Notes under the pieces: generated by a model
Told to the model about the DNA's origin: nothing
The model's input: the letters and a program-made list of their open reading frames with translations, nothing else
The model's database searches: none
Part shown: positions 12,705 through 21,009 of the stretch, piece by piece
Layout of the letters: every line of letters starts with the position of its first letter
Position numbering within the stretch: position 1 is the stretch's first letter
Translations under genes and position numbers: made by a program
Virus record (IMG/VR): IMGVR_UViG_3300022689_000122
Span: 1-29,697 of that record
Direction: 5' to 3' (one strand)
Source: a virus
DNA: 29,697 nt

Positions 12705-12950
12705 TTAATCCACCAGCTCTATCCCCTCGATCTCCCGATCGGGGTATAACAACACTTCAACAGCCATATCCCGGCGGATGGCCTCGAAGTAAAACTGATC
12801 TTTGCTGTCACCACCCGTAACTACCGGCAGTGTTTTAGCGTTATTCAGGTATAGGTCACATAACAGGCGGTAGCCCGGCTGCGCCTTGAGGCGCTCCCAT
12901 ACCGCCTTGCGCTGGTCCAGCGGCAGGGCCAGATACTGGCTGTATTCCAT
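12705..12950 (-). CDS. Unknown 81-aa protein overlapping the portal 3' end
   Basis: Its ATG lies inside the portal gene, 95 nt before the portal stop, in another frame. A strong AGGAGGA ribosome site precedes it by 5 nt, so the start is well supported. The protein begins MEYSQYLALPLDQRKAVWERLKAQPGYRLLCDLYL, a helical start, and ends acidic. No family is recognised. The position between portal and scaffold is often held by small capsid-assembly or portal-accessory proteins. The overlapped part encodes the Gly/Pro/Gln-rich low-complexity portal tail, which is probably free to vary. Confidence 0.65.
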   Translation of the reverse strand: MEYSQYLALPLDQRKAVWERLKAQPGYRLLCDLYLNNAKTLPVVTGGDSKDQFYFEAIRRDMAVEVLLYPDREIEGIELVD

Positions 12951-14781
12951 CTTGTCCTCCTAAAGTGGCTTGCATATCCACTTCCTCGAAAACTTGCTCT
13001 AAACTCACACCAAGGGTACTGAAAATCTCTTCCACAATGTGTATGGGGTTAATGGTTTTATTGCTCTGCTTCAATTGTGCAACACCTGACTGCACTACAG
13101 ATGGCACAATAGCCAATGCGTCTCGCATATCCTGCAAGCTACGTGATTTGTTTAATACCGTGCGGCTGCCAGTAATTTCAAAATCAAAATCAAGCAACTT
13201 CATCACGTTGGGGGTGATGGTTTTACCTTCCTCGGTAACTTCCACCGGCTCACTCATGTACTGGCGGTAGTTTTCAAACTCCTGCATGGCAAACCGCTGT
13301 AAGCGATACCGTTCATAGGTCTGTAACGTGGCCTGAAACCGGCTGTTGGTAGCACTGGCCAGTATTTCTACCTCGCCTAGTGTCCGCTGGTCGCCTTCTG
13401 TTACCCCGCCAGTGGCATATGGCACACCGCCGGTAACATTCCGCATGAACTCGCCAAACTGAGCAACCACACGGTCAATCAATTGCAAGCCAGTGTAATC
13501 CCCACGCAAGGGCAATACGCCTGCTGGGTTGCTACTAGGAATAAAGGCACCGGGGCGTATCGTCTGGTGTTTCTGGATATACGCTTGTAATGCCGCATCA
13601 CTGGGGTTATACAGGTTGGGCGCATTGGCGGTAACGTTGATAATATCCAGCGCCTGATTCACCAGCGTATCTACTGCGTGCATCATCGGGATAGCATCGG
13701 TAATGCTGGTTTTACCGTAAAGGCTGCCGGGGATAGGGATGAATGGGGAAATGCTAAACGGCTTTTCCTGATGGTCGTATGGGTTGGGGCCAAACCAGTG
13801 GAAGGTGCGATCATTGCTATACACCAAAACATGATTGCGATATAGCTTGCCGTTAATGAAAAAGTCGCCCCACCGCTCAAACAGACACGCCATGCCGTTG
13901 GGGTACATGCCCTCATCCTCACCATCGCCCATCATATGGCTTAGGAACTTATGGGTGCCGTCGATGCCTTGATATTCCAGTTTCTCAATCTGGTACGTGT
14001 CATCAAACAGCATATTCCGGTAAGGCAATACATCCTCACCGTTGATAAAACCCTCGGTATCCTTAATATCTTCAGGATACACCCACCGCCGCCAGATAAA
14101 CGGGGTGTCGTCAATATCGTCAACGGTTGGGTCGCAACGCCAGTCATCCAGCGCTAACGGGTAAAACCCTGTCCCCTCGGCTTCAACGGTGTCACGGTAG
14201 GTTTTGGTGACTTCACCCTGTAATAGCTCGTCTAGCTCATCAATATTAGGATCGTTCGGATCAACCAGCCCACCCCCAGCCATATACACTGGTCGTTTAC
14301 GCTCAATCCGTACCCATGGGTGCCATACGGCAGACGTGCCATCTAAAATCTCTTGTTTAATATCTTGGTACGCATAAATAAGCTGGTTGAGCTTTTGGGC
14401 GCTTTGCTGGCATAACCGCTCGTAGTTTTGCTTATTCCGTTTACTTAACTGGTTGCGTGGCTTGGGATCGCTAAACTGCGTACCGGCTGGATAGGCTGCC
14501 AAGCACAACTGAGCGTGCATGCCATCAATGGAAGCAGGTAATAACCCTGTTCTAACACTGGCATGGCTGCTTTCAATATCGTCAGGCTCAACAATCCCAT
14601 GTTCTGCCGGTTTGTTCTCAATATACGCTTGCCAGTTTTCGCTGCTTTGCTCTAGTTTTTCCTTAATCAGATCGGTATACATCATCCATTCCTTAACGGC
14701 TGACGTTACCAGAAGGTTTTGATCATCTTCTGATAGATTCACTTTGTCGCCATCACTATAAGGCATAGTGAAGTTTTGCAT
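12856..14781 (-). CDS. Portal protein
   Basis: At 641 aa this is the size of a podovirus portal. The N-terminal part is helical (LTVTSAV-type start, KLEQSSENWQAYIENKPAE), then comes 'HASVRTGLLPASIDGMHAQL', a central wing with many aromatic residues (YEDIKDTEGFINGED, WFGPNPYDHQEKPFSISPF), 'GSLYGKTSITDAIPMMHAVDTLVNQALD' for the stem and channel helix region, and 'TNSRFQATLQTYERYRLQRFAMQEFENYRQY' for the crown helices. It ends in a Gly/Pro/Gln-rich tail. It forms the dodecameric DNA channel at one capsid vertex and docks terminase. It lies directly after the terminase nuclease half and before the assembly genes. Confidence 0.85.
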   Translation of the reverse strand: MQNFTMPYSDGDKVNLSEDDQNLLVTSAVKEWMMYTDLIKEKLEQSSENWQAYIENKPAEHGIVEPDDIESSHASVRTGLLPASIDGMHAQLCLAAYPAGTQFSDPKPRNQLSKRNKQNYERLCQQSAQKLNQLIYAYQDIKQEILDGTSAVWHPWVRIERKRPVYMAGGGLVDPNDPNIDELDELLQGEVTKTYRDTVEAEGTGFYPLALDDWRCDPTVDDIDDTPFIWRRWVYPEDIKDTEGFINGEDVLPYRNMLFDDTYQIEKLEYQGIDGTHKFLSHMMGDGEDEGMYPNGMACLFERWGDFFINGKLYRNHVLVYSNDRTFHWFGPNPYDHQEKPFSISPFIPIPGSLYGKTSITDAIPMMHAVDTLVNQALDIINVTANAPNLYNPSDAALQAYIQKHQTIRPGAFIPSSNPAGVLPLRGDYTGLQLIDRVVAQFGEFMRNVTGGVPYATGGVTEGDQRTLGEVEILASATNSRFQATLQTYERYRLQRFAMQEFENYRQYMSEPVEVTEEGKTITPNVMKLLDFDFEITGSRTVLNKSRSLQDMRDALAIVPSVVQSGVAQLKQSNKTINPIHIVEEIFSTLGVSLEQVFEEVDMQATLGGQDGIQPVSGPAAGPAQGGMGAPQGAAGLPPVM

Positions 14782-14805: not shown

Positions 14806-15648
14806 CTAGTACCCAGTGTAGGGGTTTCGTCGTTTTGCTGGCAAGTCTGGAATATCAAACGACTTGGTAGGGGTAAATATCTCAAATATCGTACCTGCTA
14901 CACAGTCTACCACATCTTCATAAGGGTGTACCTCATGGATGACATCCAGCACGTTACCATTGCTGTCCTCTTTGTACCTGTAACCGCTCTGCATGGCCTC
15001 AATGGTGTTGGTTAGGCTCTTATGTACCTGTATCACCTCTCCGCCGTCTGGCGTGCGTTCCAGTAGCTTCTGCTTGGTCATATCGTTACGCATATCCCGC
15101 CGCTTTGGCCCCGCCATCTTATGAGCCTTGGATGATGGGAAAATACCGTGGTTATTCATGTAATGAATAGATGACGTGCCGGTATTCACATCGCCGTATT
15201 CCCCTGACGGGTCACCAAAGTCGATAAACCGTTCTACCCCAGCCGCTTGTAAGTTGGCACTGTACGCCGCCACCACTTGGGCTTGGGCATCGGTGCTACT
15301 GCCTTCCAGCACAATCTCTTTAAAAAAGATTAGTTGGCCGTTAGGGCGTAACTGGGAAAACACACAGGCATTCACACGGCCATAATCCACAAACCGGTAT
15401 ACGGGCAGATCGTCTAGCACCTCGTAAGGCTTTTTAAGGATATGCGCCTCTTTAAACTCTTTAAACACAACACCCTCCACCGACATGCTGTAACTAATAT
15501 CCAACTCCCTTGCCACTGCCGCAGGGGTCATCTGCTTGGCTTTGATCTCATTGTCGTACCAAGGGGAGCGTAATAGCCCCTCCTCATCCTCATATAAGCC
15601 TTTTCGTTTTTCAGGGTGAAGGCTCCAGTGTAGTCTAATCGCTTTCAC
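14806..15648 (-). CDS. terL: Terminase large subunit, nuclease half
   Basis: 280 aa corresponding to the C-terminal, RNase-H-like nuclease domain of a large terminase. It opens with IRLHWSLHPEKRKGLY, the segment that in intact TerL follows directly after the ATPase domain. Nuclease acidic residues appear in order: D88 (YRFVDYG), D143/D146 (FIDFGDP) and D245/D248 (YEDVVDCVAG). It starts with GTG at 15648, inside the end of the 90-aa gene (14-nt overlap), with a weak GAGAAG ribosome site. It cuts concatemers at packaging start and end. It must act together with the ATPase half at 16068-16790. All catalytic residues are present, so the split does not look like decay. Confidence 0.85.
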   Translation of the reverse strand: MKAIRLHWSLHPEKRKGLYEDEEGLLRSPWYDNEIKAKQMTPAAVARELDISYSMSVEGVVFKEFKEAHILKKPYEVLDDLPVYRFVDYGRVNACVFSQLRPNGQLIFFKEIVLEGSSTDAQAQVVAAYSANLQAAGVERFIDFGDPSGEYGDVNTGTSSIHYMNNHGIFPSSKAHKMAGPKRRDMRNDMTKQKLLERTPDGGEVIQVHKSLTNTIEAMQSGYRYKEDSNGNVLDVIHEVHPYEDVVDCVAGTIFEIFTPTKSFDIPDLPAKRRNPYTGY

Positions 15649-15907
15649 TAGCTTCTCGACACTCCCGCAAGTCTTTTATTTTTTCCTGAATTGTTTCCTG
15701 AACGGCTTTAATCTGATTCATTAACGCCACCTGTATTGGTCGATGACGGTGAACCCGCTTGCCACCGTTGCGCTCTGCGTAAATCTCTATTGACGGCACG
15801 CAATGACAGTCGCTGCCAATGGTATGCAGGTTTGTTTCACCTTCAGGGATGGCGTGATAATGGCCGTTTACCTGGTTTTCTAACACTTCGAAAAACTCAA
15901 CACTCAT
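15635..15907 (-). CDS. Small DCxC-motif protein inserted between TerL halves
   Basis: 90 aa. The centre has H28, then D33-C34-x-C36-x-P38 and, after 15 residues, V52-H53-R-H55, likely a small metal-binding fold. This 'H..DC.C.P....VH.' pattern resembles short unnamed proteins common in phages and actinobacterial elements, which I know only as hypothetical. Residues 59-90 are an amphipathic helix. GAGGAGGAAG precedes the ATG, and the previous stop TGA directly abuts it. It is thus translated in line with the basic 55-aa gene and the TerL halves. Function unknown; a bridging or regulatory role in packaging is possible from position only. Confidence 0.65.
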   Translation of the reverse strand: MSVEFFEVLENQVNGHYHAIPEGETNLHTIGSDCHCVPSIEIYAERNGGKRVHRHRPIQVALMNQIKAVQETIQEKIKDLRECREASESD

Positions 15908-16075
15908 TCACTTCCTCCTCTTTGCTGTTTTTGCGGCCTTTTTAAATGCTTTCGCTGTGGGCGCACCTTTTGTGCCGGGCTTTCTCATTTTTTCACCACT
16001 CCCAGCTGCAATGCGCTTCCGTTTTGCATGAATAGCATCATACAATCCAGGGTCACCTTTCTTTTTCCTAGGCAT
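15908..16075 (-). CDS. Small basic protein (55 aa) with SGEKMRKPGxKGAPT motif
   Basis: A 55-residue ORF beginning MPRKKKGDPGLYDAIHAKRKR. The segment SGEKMRKPGTKGAPTAKAF (26-44) is one I recognise as recurring in small basic proteins of phages and large DNA viruses, although I cannot cite a function. It is strongly basic throughout, compatible with DNA or RNA binding. AGGAGGTGGTGAGT precedes the ATG, and the start overlaps the end of the TerL ATPase half by 8 nt. It lies between the terminase halves. Real gene status rests on ribosome site, motif and coupling. Confidence 0.75.
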   Translation of the reverse strand: MPRKKKGDPGLYDAIHAKRKRIAAGSGEKMRKPGTKGAPTAKAFKKAAKTAKRRK

Positions 16076-16790
16076 ACTCACCACCTCCTATATCCACCCA
16101 CTCTACATCAGGGTGCTGTCTCATCCGATACGCTATGTTTGCCTGCCCAAACGGGGTAAACAACAAAATAATACAATTACTTGACTGGGATACCGACGCA
16201 TAGGCGTAATCACCATACGGGTGACGTGCCACCTCATCCATCAACACTGCCTTAAACCGTTGGGATCGGCCAAAGTCGGCGGTGGCTGATTCACCCTTTA
16301 ATATATTACCAGTATGTGGGTGGGTTATCTTCAAATAGTTATCATTCTGATACGTCAGTTTAGGGCATATCCAGTCTGGTTGCATCCGTAGGTTATACCG
16401 GAACTTCTCAAATAACGCCGAACGATCGCCTTTTTTGTCAACGTCGTCCTGTTTCCGGCTGCCGCATAAGAAGTCTGCGCCGTCCTCAAACAACCAAAAC
16501 CACTGAAAAACCAATAAAACCAGCCAAGATAAGCCCATATCCCGTGATTTTTCAATAATTAACGGTTCACCTTCCCTAATGCACCGCTCAAGCACCTTAA
16601 TCGTCTGAATTTGGAAAGGATACGGGTTAAAAGGCAGGTGGGCAGGCGTTACCCGTGGGTTAAAGGTGTAACAAAACCACTCAAACCAGAAAACAATATC
16701 CTTTTGACACTTTTTTACTAGAAAATGCTGTAAAACAGCGTCGTTTTTAGCCTCTTCCAGCATATTGGCACGTTCGTATAACGTCGCCAT
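16068..16790 (-). CDS. terL: Terminase large subunit, ATPase half
   Basis: 240 aa carrying the complete packaging-motor ATPase domain. It has a deviant Walker A KSRDMGLS (81-88), an arginine-rich region after it, Walker B VLMDE (182-186) with catalytic Glu186, and the coupling segment IILLFTPFG (207-215). The protein stops after RMRQHPDVEWVDIGGGEYA, exactly where the linker to the nuclease domain begins in intact TerL. The nuclease domain is encoded separately at 14806-15648. GAGAGGATTAATC precedes the ATG. ATP hydrolysis drives DNA into the head through the portal. Split-subunit operation is inference. Confidence 0.85.
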   Translation of the reverse strand: MATLYERANMLEEAKNDAVLQHFLVKKCQKDIVFWFEWFCYTFNPRVTPAHLPFNPYPFQIQTIKVLERCIREGEPLIIEKSRDMGLSWLVLLVFQWFWLFEDGADFLCGSRKQDDVDKKGDRSALFEKFRYNLRMQPDWICPKLTYQNDNYLKITHPHTGNILKGESATADFGRSQRFKAVLMDEVARHPYGDYAYASVSQSSNCIILLFTPFGQANIAYRMRQHPDVEWVDIGGGEYA

Positions 16791-16792
16791 GA

Positions 16793-18274
16793 TTAATCCT
16801 CTCGGAAGCCCGGCACAAACGCCTGCGTAAACGCTTCACCAGCCTCTTTTTCGCCGGTGACAACCTCAATAGAGGTCTTTACACCTTTACGAAACTGGTT
16901 ATTACCTACCAGATTCTCAGTGGCACTATTGGCACCGCTTGCCATATAAGTAAGTGCCGCCGCCATGTTCCAATAATCCTTAGCTTCTAGATCATCGGGA
17001 TCGGAAAACACTTTGCCAACACTGCTGATAGGTTTTAATACAGTAGTATTAAAAATACTAAAAGGAATACCAATGCGATTAATGAGATTAACACCAGATA
17101 CCCCCGCAGCTGTTTTCCATACCCCGCCAATAACAGGAATATCACCAACATCCTCGCCTTGGCTTTTTAAATAGTAAGGGATCCCTGTCACAGCACCATA
17201 CATCCCCAGCAAACCAGCCGCCCGTGAAATACTATCAGGGCTAGGGCTAGTGACGGCTGATTTAATCACATCATGGAATAGCTGCATTGTGCCAATACTG
17301 TAAGAAAGCAAGCGTACCCCCGCCCGTGACTCTGGGTTGCGGTACACCAATGGCGTGTTAGCCAGTGTTGGGAGGAATAGTACATTTTGTATAGCACGTC
17401 TGCCGCCAAGCTCAGTACCTTCGGCGGCCATACCTACATAGTACATAAGGTTTTTCGATGGCCGATCCATTACACCGGCAAACCGTTCCAGCATCCCACG
17501 ATTAGGTGACACGTCCCCAATATCAAGGCCATACAAACCTTGTTGCTTTAACTCTGGTATCTCGTCAAATAAACCAGTTGCGCCACGCTCGTTAATCAGG
17601 TTTTTAAGCCCTTTAAAAAAGTTTCCCTTGTAAAGCGGGATACCCTTCATCACCGGCTCAACAAAGTTGCCCATCAACACGGTGGGATTGGCAATAACGG
17701 CACCTTTAGACAGGTTATCCACCTTGCCAATTAGTTTAGACTTGCTGCGCCGCATCAATAGCCCGTTATAGCGGTCGGCCTTGTACTTTTCAAAGTATAT
17801 CTGCTGTGATGGTGTAAACTCGCTAGTGTCAATATCACTAAACACCTGATCCATCGCCTGCTTGTACTTAGCACCATCAATAATGCCTTCCTGCAATAGG
17901 CGCATACTGACATCATCAATCTGGTCGATAATCTCAAAACCTAATACACTGGATGGTGTGGCCGTTTCCTGAAAAATAGATGCAATACTGGCTTGTTGCA
18001 CCTTGCCACCATCAGGCCCTTGGTACTCGTCGCTAAACTCACGCTGCATCTTCTGCCAGTATGAACGCTGTTCATTAAAATTACCTTGCTCAGCGCTCAT
18101 CACAAGCCCGTCAAGGCTCTCTTCTGTCTCTCTGGCATTACGAGCCACAAACGATGCTAACCCCTCGCCATCAAGCGACTCAAGCACCTCTTGGCTAATG
18201 GTTGGGTCTTTTAACGATTCCGCCCCAACAATATCACCTAGTACGCCTTTAGGACTGCAACGATCAAAGCTCAT
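16793..18274 (-). CDS. Internal virion / ejection-type protein
   Basis: 493 aa, with the start placed at the ATG overlapping the previous stop as TAATG (18274). An upstream ATG at 18301 lacks a ribosome site, while GGGAAGGTGAG serves 18274. The protein is helical with several moderately hydrophobic stretches (AAGLLGMYGAVTGIPYYL, AGVSGVNLINRIGIPFSIF, NMAAALTYMASG) and glycines, which suggests membrane interaction during DNA delivery. It resembles the C-terminal parts of large polyvalent ejection proteins; it and the 911-aa gene may be two pieces of such a protein. No enzymatic motif is seen. Function inferred from position and composition. Confidence 0.6.
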   Translation of the reverse strand: MSFDRCSPKGVLGDIVGAESLKDPTISQEVLESLDGEGLASFVARNARETEESLDGLVMSAEQGNFNEQRSYWQKMQREFSDEYQGPDGGKVQQASIASIFQETATPSSVLGFEIIDQIDDVSMRLLQEGIIDGAKYKQAMDQVFSDIDTSEFTPSQQIYFEKYKADRYNGLLMRRSKSKLIGKVDNLSKGAVIANPTVLMGNFVEPVMKGIPLYKGNFFKGLKNLINERGATGLFDEIPELKQQGLYGLDIGDVSPNRGMLERFAGVMDRPSKNLMYYVGMAAEGTELGGRRAIQNVLFLPTLANTPLVYRNPESRAGVRLLSYSIGTMQLFHDVIKSAVTSPSPDSISRAAGLLGMYGAVTGIPYYLKSQGEDVGDIPVIGGVWKTAAGVSGVNLINRIGIPFSIFNTTVLKPISSVGKVFSDPDDLEAKDYWNMAAALTYMASGANSATENLVGNNQFRKGVKTSIEVVTGEKEAGEAFTQAFVPGFRED

Positions 18275-21009
18275 TAGCTCACCTTCCCAAGTAAGGTACA
18301 CATCTTTTTAAGCAGTTTTGGGTCGGTTTTTAGCAAATCTTCCATATCCTTAACCGTTGCCACCGTGGCCGCCCGTGGGTTACGCCGGAAATCATCTAAT
18401 AGTTTAGCGAACTTGGGGTTAGCCGCCATAATATCCGCCCGTGAGGCTAGCTCGCCAGCCTTTTCAGCCGTAGCAAGTGCATCACTGGTACGAATACCAT
18501 CCTCCCGCACTGGCCTAGCCATTATATCATCAATGCTAAACTCTCGGACGCCTTTATAAATATTAGCGTACTCACCACGGAAAGCGGGCGTGTTTACTGC
18601 ATCCAGCACACGGTTAATCTTGCTAAACTGGCCATCAGCGTTAGGCTTGGGAGTAATGTAATATTGCGCTATATGGCCATCTTCGTTATAGCCCGTCACC
18701 GCAACATAGTTATCTTTAGTTTTAGTAAAGCCAATAGGTGATATTTCTTTTTCACCTACCCGTGACGTGGCACCGGTAATCTCCGTATCAACATCCAAGC
18801 GTATACGGCCATCATTTTGGGCGATAACCTCTAACGTTTTGGCTAAATTGTACTCGTTATCCGTTAAATACGGCGCTACCTCGTCTAACGTCAACGCTTT
18901 ACTGGCTTTTTGACGCCCTATCCCGGTAGCCTCGTCGTAATTAAGCGAAAATGCCTCTCTTAAACTTGGATGAAGCTGTCCAATCTGGTCGTTAACGTTT
19001 TGCTTCTCGATCCGCAGATCCATATCAACAACTTTGTTACGAGCGGTGTTGAAATCCCGAGCATTAACCTGCCCTGACTCCATTTTGGCCAAGCTTTTAC
19101 GTAAATTGTTCGCTAGCCTTGTTGTCGTCCGCAACTCACCTGATTCAATCATCGCCAATTGCTCACGCATCCGTTGCGTTACCACATCTGGCGTCAACTC
19201 CTCAAGGTTGGCCATGCGGTTTTTGCCAAGCGTAGGCAGGCTTTTGCGGTAGTTCACAAGGTTATCAAAGTCGGCCTTTGACTTAATCACACTGCCCTGT
19301 GTGCCTTGCTCAATCATCATCTCACGGCCACCACGCAACCGCTTGCCATCCATCACCACCTTTTCAGGGGTTTGTGGCTTGGGTTTAAACCCTTGTACCC
19401 CTTCACCGGGGGGCACCTCTGGCGCAATCGCTTTCTTTACGATGCTGCCAGGAATAACATCCTGACCGTCTAACTCGTCATACGCCTGACGAACACGCTG
19501 GCCAATCGCCCGCAGGTTCTCATCACCATAACCCGGCAAGGCTTCTCTGGCCGCCTTTAATGCTGCTTCATCGGCGGGGTTACTGCCAAGGTCGTAAAAG
19601 GCCGCATCAACGCCGCTATCAGGTGCTTTTGGCTGACGGATTAAGCTTAGTTGTGTAGCCTCGCCCTCAACCTCCGTAGCCTTTTCTTTCTGTTTAGGCG
19701 CTGTATACTCCACATCACGCACAACTGGCTCCGCTGGCACGTCAAAGGGTTTTACCTCAGGCTCCGTAGGCGTTTGGACGACTTCGTTGCGAGGTGGGCT
19801 GGCCGGTGTTAGATCAATTGTGTTATCCAGCTCCAGCGTTTGCCGTACGGATGGTGTCCGTGGTTGTACTGGCAACGTTTCCGGTGCCAGCTCTACCCGT
19901 GGGGCATAGAGGTTTTGTCTTGGGGCTAAAGGTCGCTCCGGCAACTTGGGCGCACGGGTGCCAAGCGCACCAGCGATACCGCCACCACTTGCCCCAATAC
20001 CCGCTTGGGTCAGTGTTCTACCAACGTCAACATTAGGCGTAAATGTACCTTGCTCCACCCCTTGTTGAATAATGGAGCCAACTCCCTCGGCTCCACCCTG
20101 TATAGCGGCATTGGCCGCTGTCCGTGGGATAAAGCCTCTAGCTGCTTGGAATACAGGCAAAGCGGACAACCCACCACCTATGGCACCAGCACCAAGGGCT
20201 TTGCCAACGTTGGTTTGCTCACCTGCTAGCCGCTGGCGTTGTAGTTCAGCGCCGCCGGATAACCCAGCACCTGCCGCTACTGTGCCAGGCACACCACCTG
20301 CAAAACCAGCACCAAGGAAAACCCCAAGGTTACCCGCTAGCTGCCCAATCTCATACGCTGGTCGCCCTGCAAGGTTAGAGGCCGCCACGTCACGGGTGTA
20401 CCCTGTCAACGGGTTAGCTAAACCAGCACCAAGCTCTTTTAAGATACCAACATCTGTTGATAACTCCTCTGGTTGTGCCTGTTGGGCCGCCTCTCTCGCT
20501 ATCCGCTCCTGAACCTGAGCATTTAATTGCTGTAGCTGCCTGTCTGCCTCAACTTGCTGCTTAGCTTCTGGCCGCTTAATCTCGCTGGTCGGCACCGACA
20601 CCGCTTTAATATCAGGCTTATCAACTAGGAAGCCCTTGCCGGTGAGGGTTAAATCCAGTAATTCTCCCATGGAATAATCACGGGGGTTGATCTCTGGCCG
20701 CTCAATCTGTTTGGCTAGCTGGCCCACCTCAATTGCCTTACCTACAGCCTTTTTGGGTAATTCAATATGGAAGTGTGGCCCACCCCATACCGCCTGCCCC
20801 TTTGGCCGTGTACGCTCATCCAGCACACGCCCGCCGACCGCAGCAACACGCTGTTGAAGGTCTTCAAAGTCTACTCCACGATGATCAATATCTATCGCCA
20901 GCCCTGAGCCATGCAAACTGCCAACGTTATGCCGCCCACCAGTGCTGCTTGTCACACGATAGCCGCCCTGCTCTGCTAAAGCCACTAATCTAGGGTCTAG
21001 CTCAACCAT
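18274..21009 (-). CDS. Large virion protein with N-terminal M15/VanY peptidase domain
   Basis: 911 aa. Residues 1-87 form a zinc peptidase domain: S31-x-H33-x2-G36-x-A38-x-D40 and a closing H79-F-H81. These are the VanY/M15 ligands H33, D40 and H81, likely used to open peptidoglycan as DNA enters. Residues 180-350 contain a Gly/Ala-rich, hydrophobic region (GVFLGAGFAGGVPGTVAAGAG, LGAGAIGGGLSALPVF), likely to insert in membrane. Residues 350-560 are Pro/Glu/Thr-rich linker. The rest is helical. AGGAGGC precedes the ATG. It lies in the ejection-protein cluster. The peptidase call is strong; the remainder is inferred from composition and context. Confidence 0.7.
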   Translation of the reverse strand: MVELDPRLVALAEQGGYRVTSSTGGRHNVGSLHGSGLAIDIDHRGVDFEDLQQRVAAVGGRVLDERTRPKGQAVWGGPHFHIELPKKAVGKAIEVGQLAKQIERPEINPRDYSMGELLDLTLTGKGFLVDKPDIKAVSVPTSEIKRPEAKQQVEADRQLQQLNAQVQERIAREAAQQAQPEELSTDVGILKELGAGLANPLTGYTRDVAASNLAGRPAYEIGQLAGNLGVFLGAGFAGGVPGTVAAGAGLSGGAELQRQRLAGEQTNVGKALGAGAIGGGLSALPVFQAARGFIPRTAANAAIQGGAEGVGSIIQQGVEQGTFTPNVDVGRTLTQAGIGASGGGIAGALGTRAPKLPERPLAPRQNLYAPRVELAPETLPVQPRTPSVRQTLELDNTIDLTPASPPRNEVVQTPTEPEVKPFDVPAEPVVRDVEYTAPKQKEKATEVEGEATQLSLIRQPKAPDSGVDAAFYDLGSNPADEAALKAAREALPGYGDENLRAIGQRVRQAYDELDGQDVIPGSIVKKAIAPEVPPGEGVQGFKPKPQTPEKVVMDGKRLRGGREMMIEQGTQGSVIKSKADFDNLVNYRKSLPTLGKNRMANLEELTPDVVTQRMREQLAMIESGELRTTTRLANNLRKSLAKMESGQVNARDFNTARNKVVDMDLRIEKQNVNDQIGQLHPSLREAFSLNYDEATGIGRQKASKALTLDEVAPYLTDNEYNLAKTLEVIAQNDGRIRLDVDTEITGATSRVGEKEISPIGFTKTKDNYVAVTGYNEDGHIAQYYITPKPNADGQFSKINRVLDAVNTPAFRGEYANIYKGVREFSIDDIMARPVREDGIRTSDALATAEKAGELASRADIMAANPKFAKLLDDFRRNPRAATVATVKDMEDLLKTDPKLLKKMCTLLGKVS

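Follow-up and report, generated by a model that had tools for sequence, protein, structure and literature searches.

The window analysed here is the whole 29,697-nucleotide stretch of IMG/VR virus record IMGVR_UViG_3300022689_000122 (positions 1-29,697), which is possibly a fragment and may be incomplete. On its minus strand the large terminase (TerL) is encoded by two open reading frames (ORFs) with two small genes between them, an arrangement that had been noted in the preliminary description and was confirmed here. The features of the locus, listed in the order of the genes on the minus strand, are as follows.

16793-18301, minus strand: 502-aa gene preceding the ATPase gene and probably encoding a virion protein (a similar-sized gene occupies the same place in six relatives)
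16068-16790, minus strand: ATPase gene of the split TerL, 240 aa, predicted to comprise the ASCE core only (phrog_2, E 3e-11; AlphaFold pLDDT 94; VIA Z 22.9 against T4 gp17 61-312)
16527-16553, minus strand: Walker A-like motif EKSRDMGLS, residues 80-88 (EKSRD kept in 9/9 phages with adjacent split genes)
16233-16247, minus strand: Walker B motif VLMDE, residues 182-186 (DE kept in the same 9/9 phages)
16084-16089, minus strand: AGGAGG ribosome site of the 55-aa gene, within the final ATPase codons (from the sequence)
15908-16075, minus strand: inserted basic 55-aa gene of the phrog_16028 family (E 3e-25), start ATG at 16075
15635-15907, minus strand: inserted 90-aa gene with a DCHC motif, start ATG at 15907, AGGAGG at 15914-15919 (weak phrog_12377 match, E 4e-4)
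14806-15648, minus strand: predicted lid and nuclease gene of the split TerL, 280 aa, start GTG at 15648 (phrog_2, E 1e-10; AlphaFold pLDDT 86)
15478-15648, minus strand: putative lid/linker segment, nuclease chain residues 1-57 (between D6E 198, where the ATPase match ends, and D6E 234, where the nuclease match starts)
14869-15477, minus strand: RNase H-like nuclease domain, residues 58-260, with acidic residues D88, D146, D245 and D248 (VIA Z 20.4 against D6E TerL 234-417)
12856-14781, minus strand: portal protein gene, next in the conserved order, which is identical in relatives (phrog_332, E 4e-10; SU10_portal match weak and under the Pfam cut-off)

The two halves together contain what is expected of a TerL, that is an ASCE ATPase core with Walker A, Walker B and coupling motif (motif III, FTPFG, is present in the ATPase ORF) and an RNase H-like nuclease with its acidic residues, but the usual architecture with both on one polypeptide is replaced by two ORFs here and in nine other records. 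Against the PHROG TerL profile phrog_2 the ATPase half matched profile positions 262-411 and the nuclease half 426-596, so that the two matches are nearly gapless. A second complete terL was looked for with the ATPase half and with phrog_2, and only the split pair was found in this 29.7-kb, possibly incomplete, record. The strong ribosome sites and tight overlaps described for the small genes correspond to an AGGAGG for each and to overlaps of 8 nt (55-aa ORF with the ATPase stop) and 14 nt (nuclease ORF with the end of the 90-aa ORF); the ribosome site of the nuclease gene is weak. Among the window proteins scanned, none was recognised as a small terminase subunit. Another small and very basic ORF (49 aa, positions 2069-2218) lies in the structural region and had no relative in the fetched loci.

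Relatives were found with the nuclease half first and then by profile scans, and each locus was put through an automatic split test; the records all come from metagenomes, and the majority are fragmentary. The ATPase and nuclease ORFs were separate in 4/4 of the first relatives retrieved with the nuclease half, and the majority of the remaining relatives had an intact TerL. The break was found at the same place in nine non-redundant viral contigs (the window, L001, L002, L003, L004, L008, L010, L014 and L053), the eight others having 37-66% identity to the window in the ATPase and 28-62% in the nuclease half. The catalytic residues, described earlier as intact in both halves of the window, are conserved throughout this set: Walker A (EKSRDxG), Walker B (xxxDE), motif III (TP) and the nuclease acidic residues (D88, D146, D245 and D248 in the window) were present in 9/9 contigs, as was the gene order ATPase-nuclease-portal. 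A gene of about 480-530 aa, matched by size and position, lies directly before the ATPase gene in the window, L002, L004, L008, L010, L014 and L053, and is not directly upstream of it in L001 or L003. Given that tblastn with the nuclease half gave no match among annotated phages, no isolate is at hand.

A tenth split record is the metagenome-assembled genome (MAG) Cyanobacteria bacterium HKST-UBA04, in which the two halves are on different contigs. The 4.1-kb contig (L148) carries the ATPase gene and, after it, an unrelated ORF; the 4.7-kb contig (L149) carries a reverse-strand 168-aa ORF, then the nuclease gene, which has a GGGAG site of its own, and the portal gene. One ORF family (RRSLDRRNHPAWTGRTYPEAEALEWF...) is copied after the ATPase gene (C37) and after the portal gene (C30), with a third copy on C163, and is possibly prophage cargo. 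Since copies of this unrelated ORF follow both the ATPase and the portal gene, the two contigs may be neighbours parted by inserted cargo; the arrangement may also be a mis-assembly of the MAG. The recurrence in these records confirmed that the split is real.

To place the break, AlphaFold models were built from alignments of the window and locus sequences only and compared with known folds by VIA alignment. The ATPase model (residues 3-235) was superimposed on T4 gp17 61-312 with an rmsd of 2.6 over 211 aligned residues, and residues 51-240 on D6E 9-198 with Z 14.1. In the nuclease model most of the nuclease domain had a pLDDT above 90 and residues 1-60, modelled without the core, about 50-75; residues 58-260 aligned with D6E 234-417 with an rmsd of 2.5 over 173 residues, and the half matched the P22 nuclease domain with Z 17.6. 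A sequence search of the PDB with the nuclease profile gave nothing useful, in contrast to the fold comparison. In D6E the linker is formed by residues 230-241 and the lid residues include Y213 and R224 (PMC5727402). Given that the core match ends at T4 312 and D6E 198, that the nuclease match starts at D6E 234 and that the D6E lid lies between, the first part of the nuclease gene is predicted to encode the lid. According to the models, the break is thus inside the ATPase domain, separating the ASCE core from the lid. The proposal that ATPase and nuclease had been parted stands as far as the two genes are concerned, but not for the boundary, which is not the one between these domains.

In known TerLs the lid closes the ATP cleft and couples the motor. 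For T4, published work presents the lid (NsubII) as the transmission linking the ATP engine to the nuclease/translocation domain (PMC3012670, PMC9958956). When T4 gp17 was split at the hinge, a nearby but different and later point than the natural break described here, ATPase and nuclease activities were retained and translocation was lost (PMC3012670). Given that a cut at a nearby place stops pumping in T4, these uncultured tailed phages would have had to find a workable two-piece motor.

The position of the lid bears on the earlier suggestion of a separately acting or separately dosed core and nuclease, for which the 55-aa and 90-aa proteins would serve as a bridge or regulator. The small genes are tightly packed and have good ribosome sites, as such a role would predict, but an ATPase chain lacking the lid would be an incomplete ATPase domain, so separate dosing is not supported. 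Moreover, the stretches fetched for the other split phages, the closest relative L008 included, contain neither small gene. The 55-aa protein belongs to a known family (phrog_16028, profile positions 4-49 of 50) with matches in 70 phage records, mainly cyanophages and pelagiphages, and this family occurs near the terminase and portal genes of phages with an intact TerL, in two examples between TerL and portal. Bridging is therefore also unsupported, and we regard separate action or dosing with these proteins as bridge or regulator as improbable. The 90-aa protein had no tblastn match among phages and only the weak profile match listed above. Because L008 has the bare split without them, the two small genes appear, from the gene comparison, to be a late insert, and we infer that they are passengers at a permissive gene boundary. 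In L001 (L001:110-429) basic 51-aa and 54-aa genes lie just upstream of the ATPase gene and not in the junction.

The junctions between the two TerL genes differ widely among the viral contigs. In L008, which has 66% (ATPase) and 62% (nuclease) identity to the window, there is no insert: the nuclease gene begins at an ATG that precedes the ATPase stop by 11 nt, and an AGGAG lies six bases upstream of this ATG. The genes overlap by about 45 nt in L003 (with AGGAG) and overlap in frame +1 in L001, L010 and L053; L014 has TAATG (frame +2) and L004 an in-frame TAA, three bases and then ATG (frame 0). In L002 a gap holds a 36-aa ORF (L002:2984-3094) that touches both the ATPase and the nuclease gene, and in the window the two inserted genes intervene. 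If the halves were joined in translation, by programmed frameshifting or stop readthrough, a fixed relative frame and a shared shift site would be expected. The relative frame is +1 in 6/9 junctions, including one with a gap, and shifting at the L008 or L010 stop would give a plausible linker, but the set as a whole combines frames 0, +1 and +2 with gaps and inserts. A single shift is impossible in the window and in L002, where there is no overlap, a shift at the L001 or L003 stop would remove the conserved IxxHW residues, L004 and L014 depart from frame +1 (L004 with a TAA), and the HKST-UBA04 halves are on separate contigs. Joining during translation is consequently very improbable.

Splicing of 15648-16070 as an intron has a precedent in the terL of the Bastillevirinae SIOphi and phiAGATE and of Jug phages, which likewise consists of two or more ORFs with other sequence between and in which group I introns and their splicing have been shown (PMC11878797, PMC12363816). 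Here no self-splicing group I intron was found between the coding parts: the Rfam intron search gave zero matches by gathering score and, with E relaxed to 10, just two hits, both attributed to chance. Two ORFs, one from a known family, occupy the segment, and insert-free relatives are still split (L008, in a different frame), so that an intron is extremely unlikely. That terL is a decaying or mis-assembled gene, as a metagenomic source and the absence of a complete genome might suggest, is hardly credible and is contradicted by the relatives, since ten records conserve the break, the catalytic motifs and start codons at the matching place. Given the varied junctions, a common frameshift or splicing rule cannot account for the split. 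Together with the nine other split records, this gives good support to the two-polypeptide motor that had been proposed, and separate translation of the ATPase and nuclease chains is strongly supported by the gene arrangements.

In a 42-row tree all nine splits were placed in one supported 12-row clade (96/93) together with three intact rows, and a single one-sided split clade was not rejected (p-AU 0.416). When later-scan intact rows and the HKST-UBA04 pair were added in a 36-row tree the splits still clustered, but L142, an intact 601-aa TerL, was nested with the split L004 (97/93) inside an otherwise split subclade (100/100), and a single split clade was rejected (p-AU 0.0015). These two results leave as candidates one split with re-fusion or two or more splits. 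Two intact TerLs that fall within the split clade, L142 (L142:5050-6852) and L060 (L060:5944-7554), have a longer linker and carry a Met at the very position where the nuclease gene of the split relatives starts. L142 keeps the split-type tail KKGLA and has a Met at the usual nuclease start (MMKRYRLHW), and L060 reads MRILRFHW after the longer linker. From these sequences one or two intact members (L142, L060) look re-fused, independent splits being the alternative, and the Met is possibly an internal start. The intact relatives just outside the split group include TerLs in Vampirovibrionales MAGs, which gives a hint about hosts.

Single-chain TerLs (T4 gp17, D6E, P22, Sf6, HK97) share with the present pair the core, lid, RNase H nuclease, motifs, folds (best Z 20-23) and portal neighbour, the difference being that here there are two genes, broken between ASCE core and lid. 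Phage P2 also has separately encoded terminase subunits, gpP and gpM, one of them named for ATPase; a P2-type two-subunit terminase was considered and rejected, as gpP combines Terminase_6N and RNase H-like Terminase_6C in a single chain and gpM is of a small-subunit family. One ancestral protein has become two or more genes in other phage enzymes, namely the jumbo-phage RNA polymerase beta, the MEP401 DNA polymerase, with a small ORF between, and the HTVC019P group III RNA polymerase (PMC7824862, PMC10580990, PMC6811365), but none of these is a packaging motor. In the open-access literature searched, no natural intron-free split TerL was found, and the split terL genes that were found are intron cases.

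Taken together, the data make it probable that this is a two-chain TerL in which separately translated core and lid-nuclease chains associate noncovalently as one subunit, with a split that is ancestral or of at least two origins and with the small genes as passengers. Chain 1 would consist of the ASCE ATPase core, and chain 2 of the lid subdomain followed by the linker and the RNase H nuclease; both are presumably translated from their own start codons, which are present in ten records. The two would bind each other noncovalently, with the chain 2 lid closing the ATP cleft of chain 1, and would together serve as one TerL subunit in a portal-docked ring. We infer re-association into a functional subunit because the lid is on the other chain and because both halves are conserved. 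Either the split would date back to the ancestor of a deep clade, in which one or two members later re-fused, or it would have arisen at least twice; the junction would have turned into an ordinary gene boundary where small genes settle. An extension of the two-chain reading, which we consider unlikely although less so than separate dosing, is that the lid-nuclease chain is exchangeable, rings of ASCE cores on the portal taking on and releasing lid-nuclease chains. If true, nuclease engagement at initiation and headful termination would be controlled by chain exchange and not by a tethered domain.

These phages may be overlooked or wrongly labelled by annotation pipelines that assume TerL to be full-length. 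With its natural break between core and lid, this lineage provides two separable chains for probing how ATP hydrolysis is coupled via the lid to DNA movement, and it bears on how the nuclease is restrained during packaging. The finding suggests that covalent linkage at the core/lid point has not been essential in the evolution of the packaging motor.
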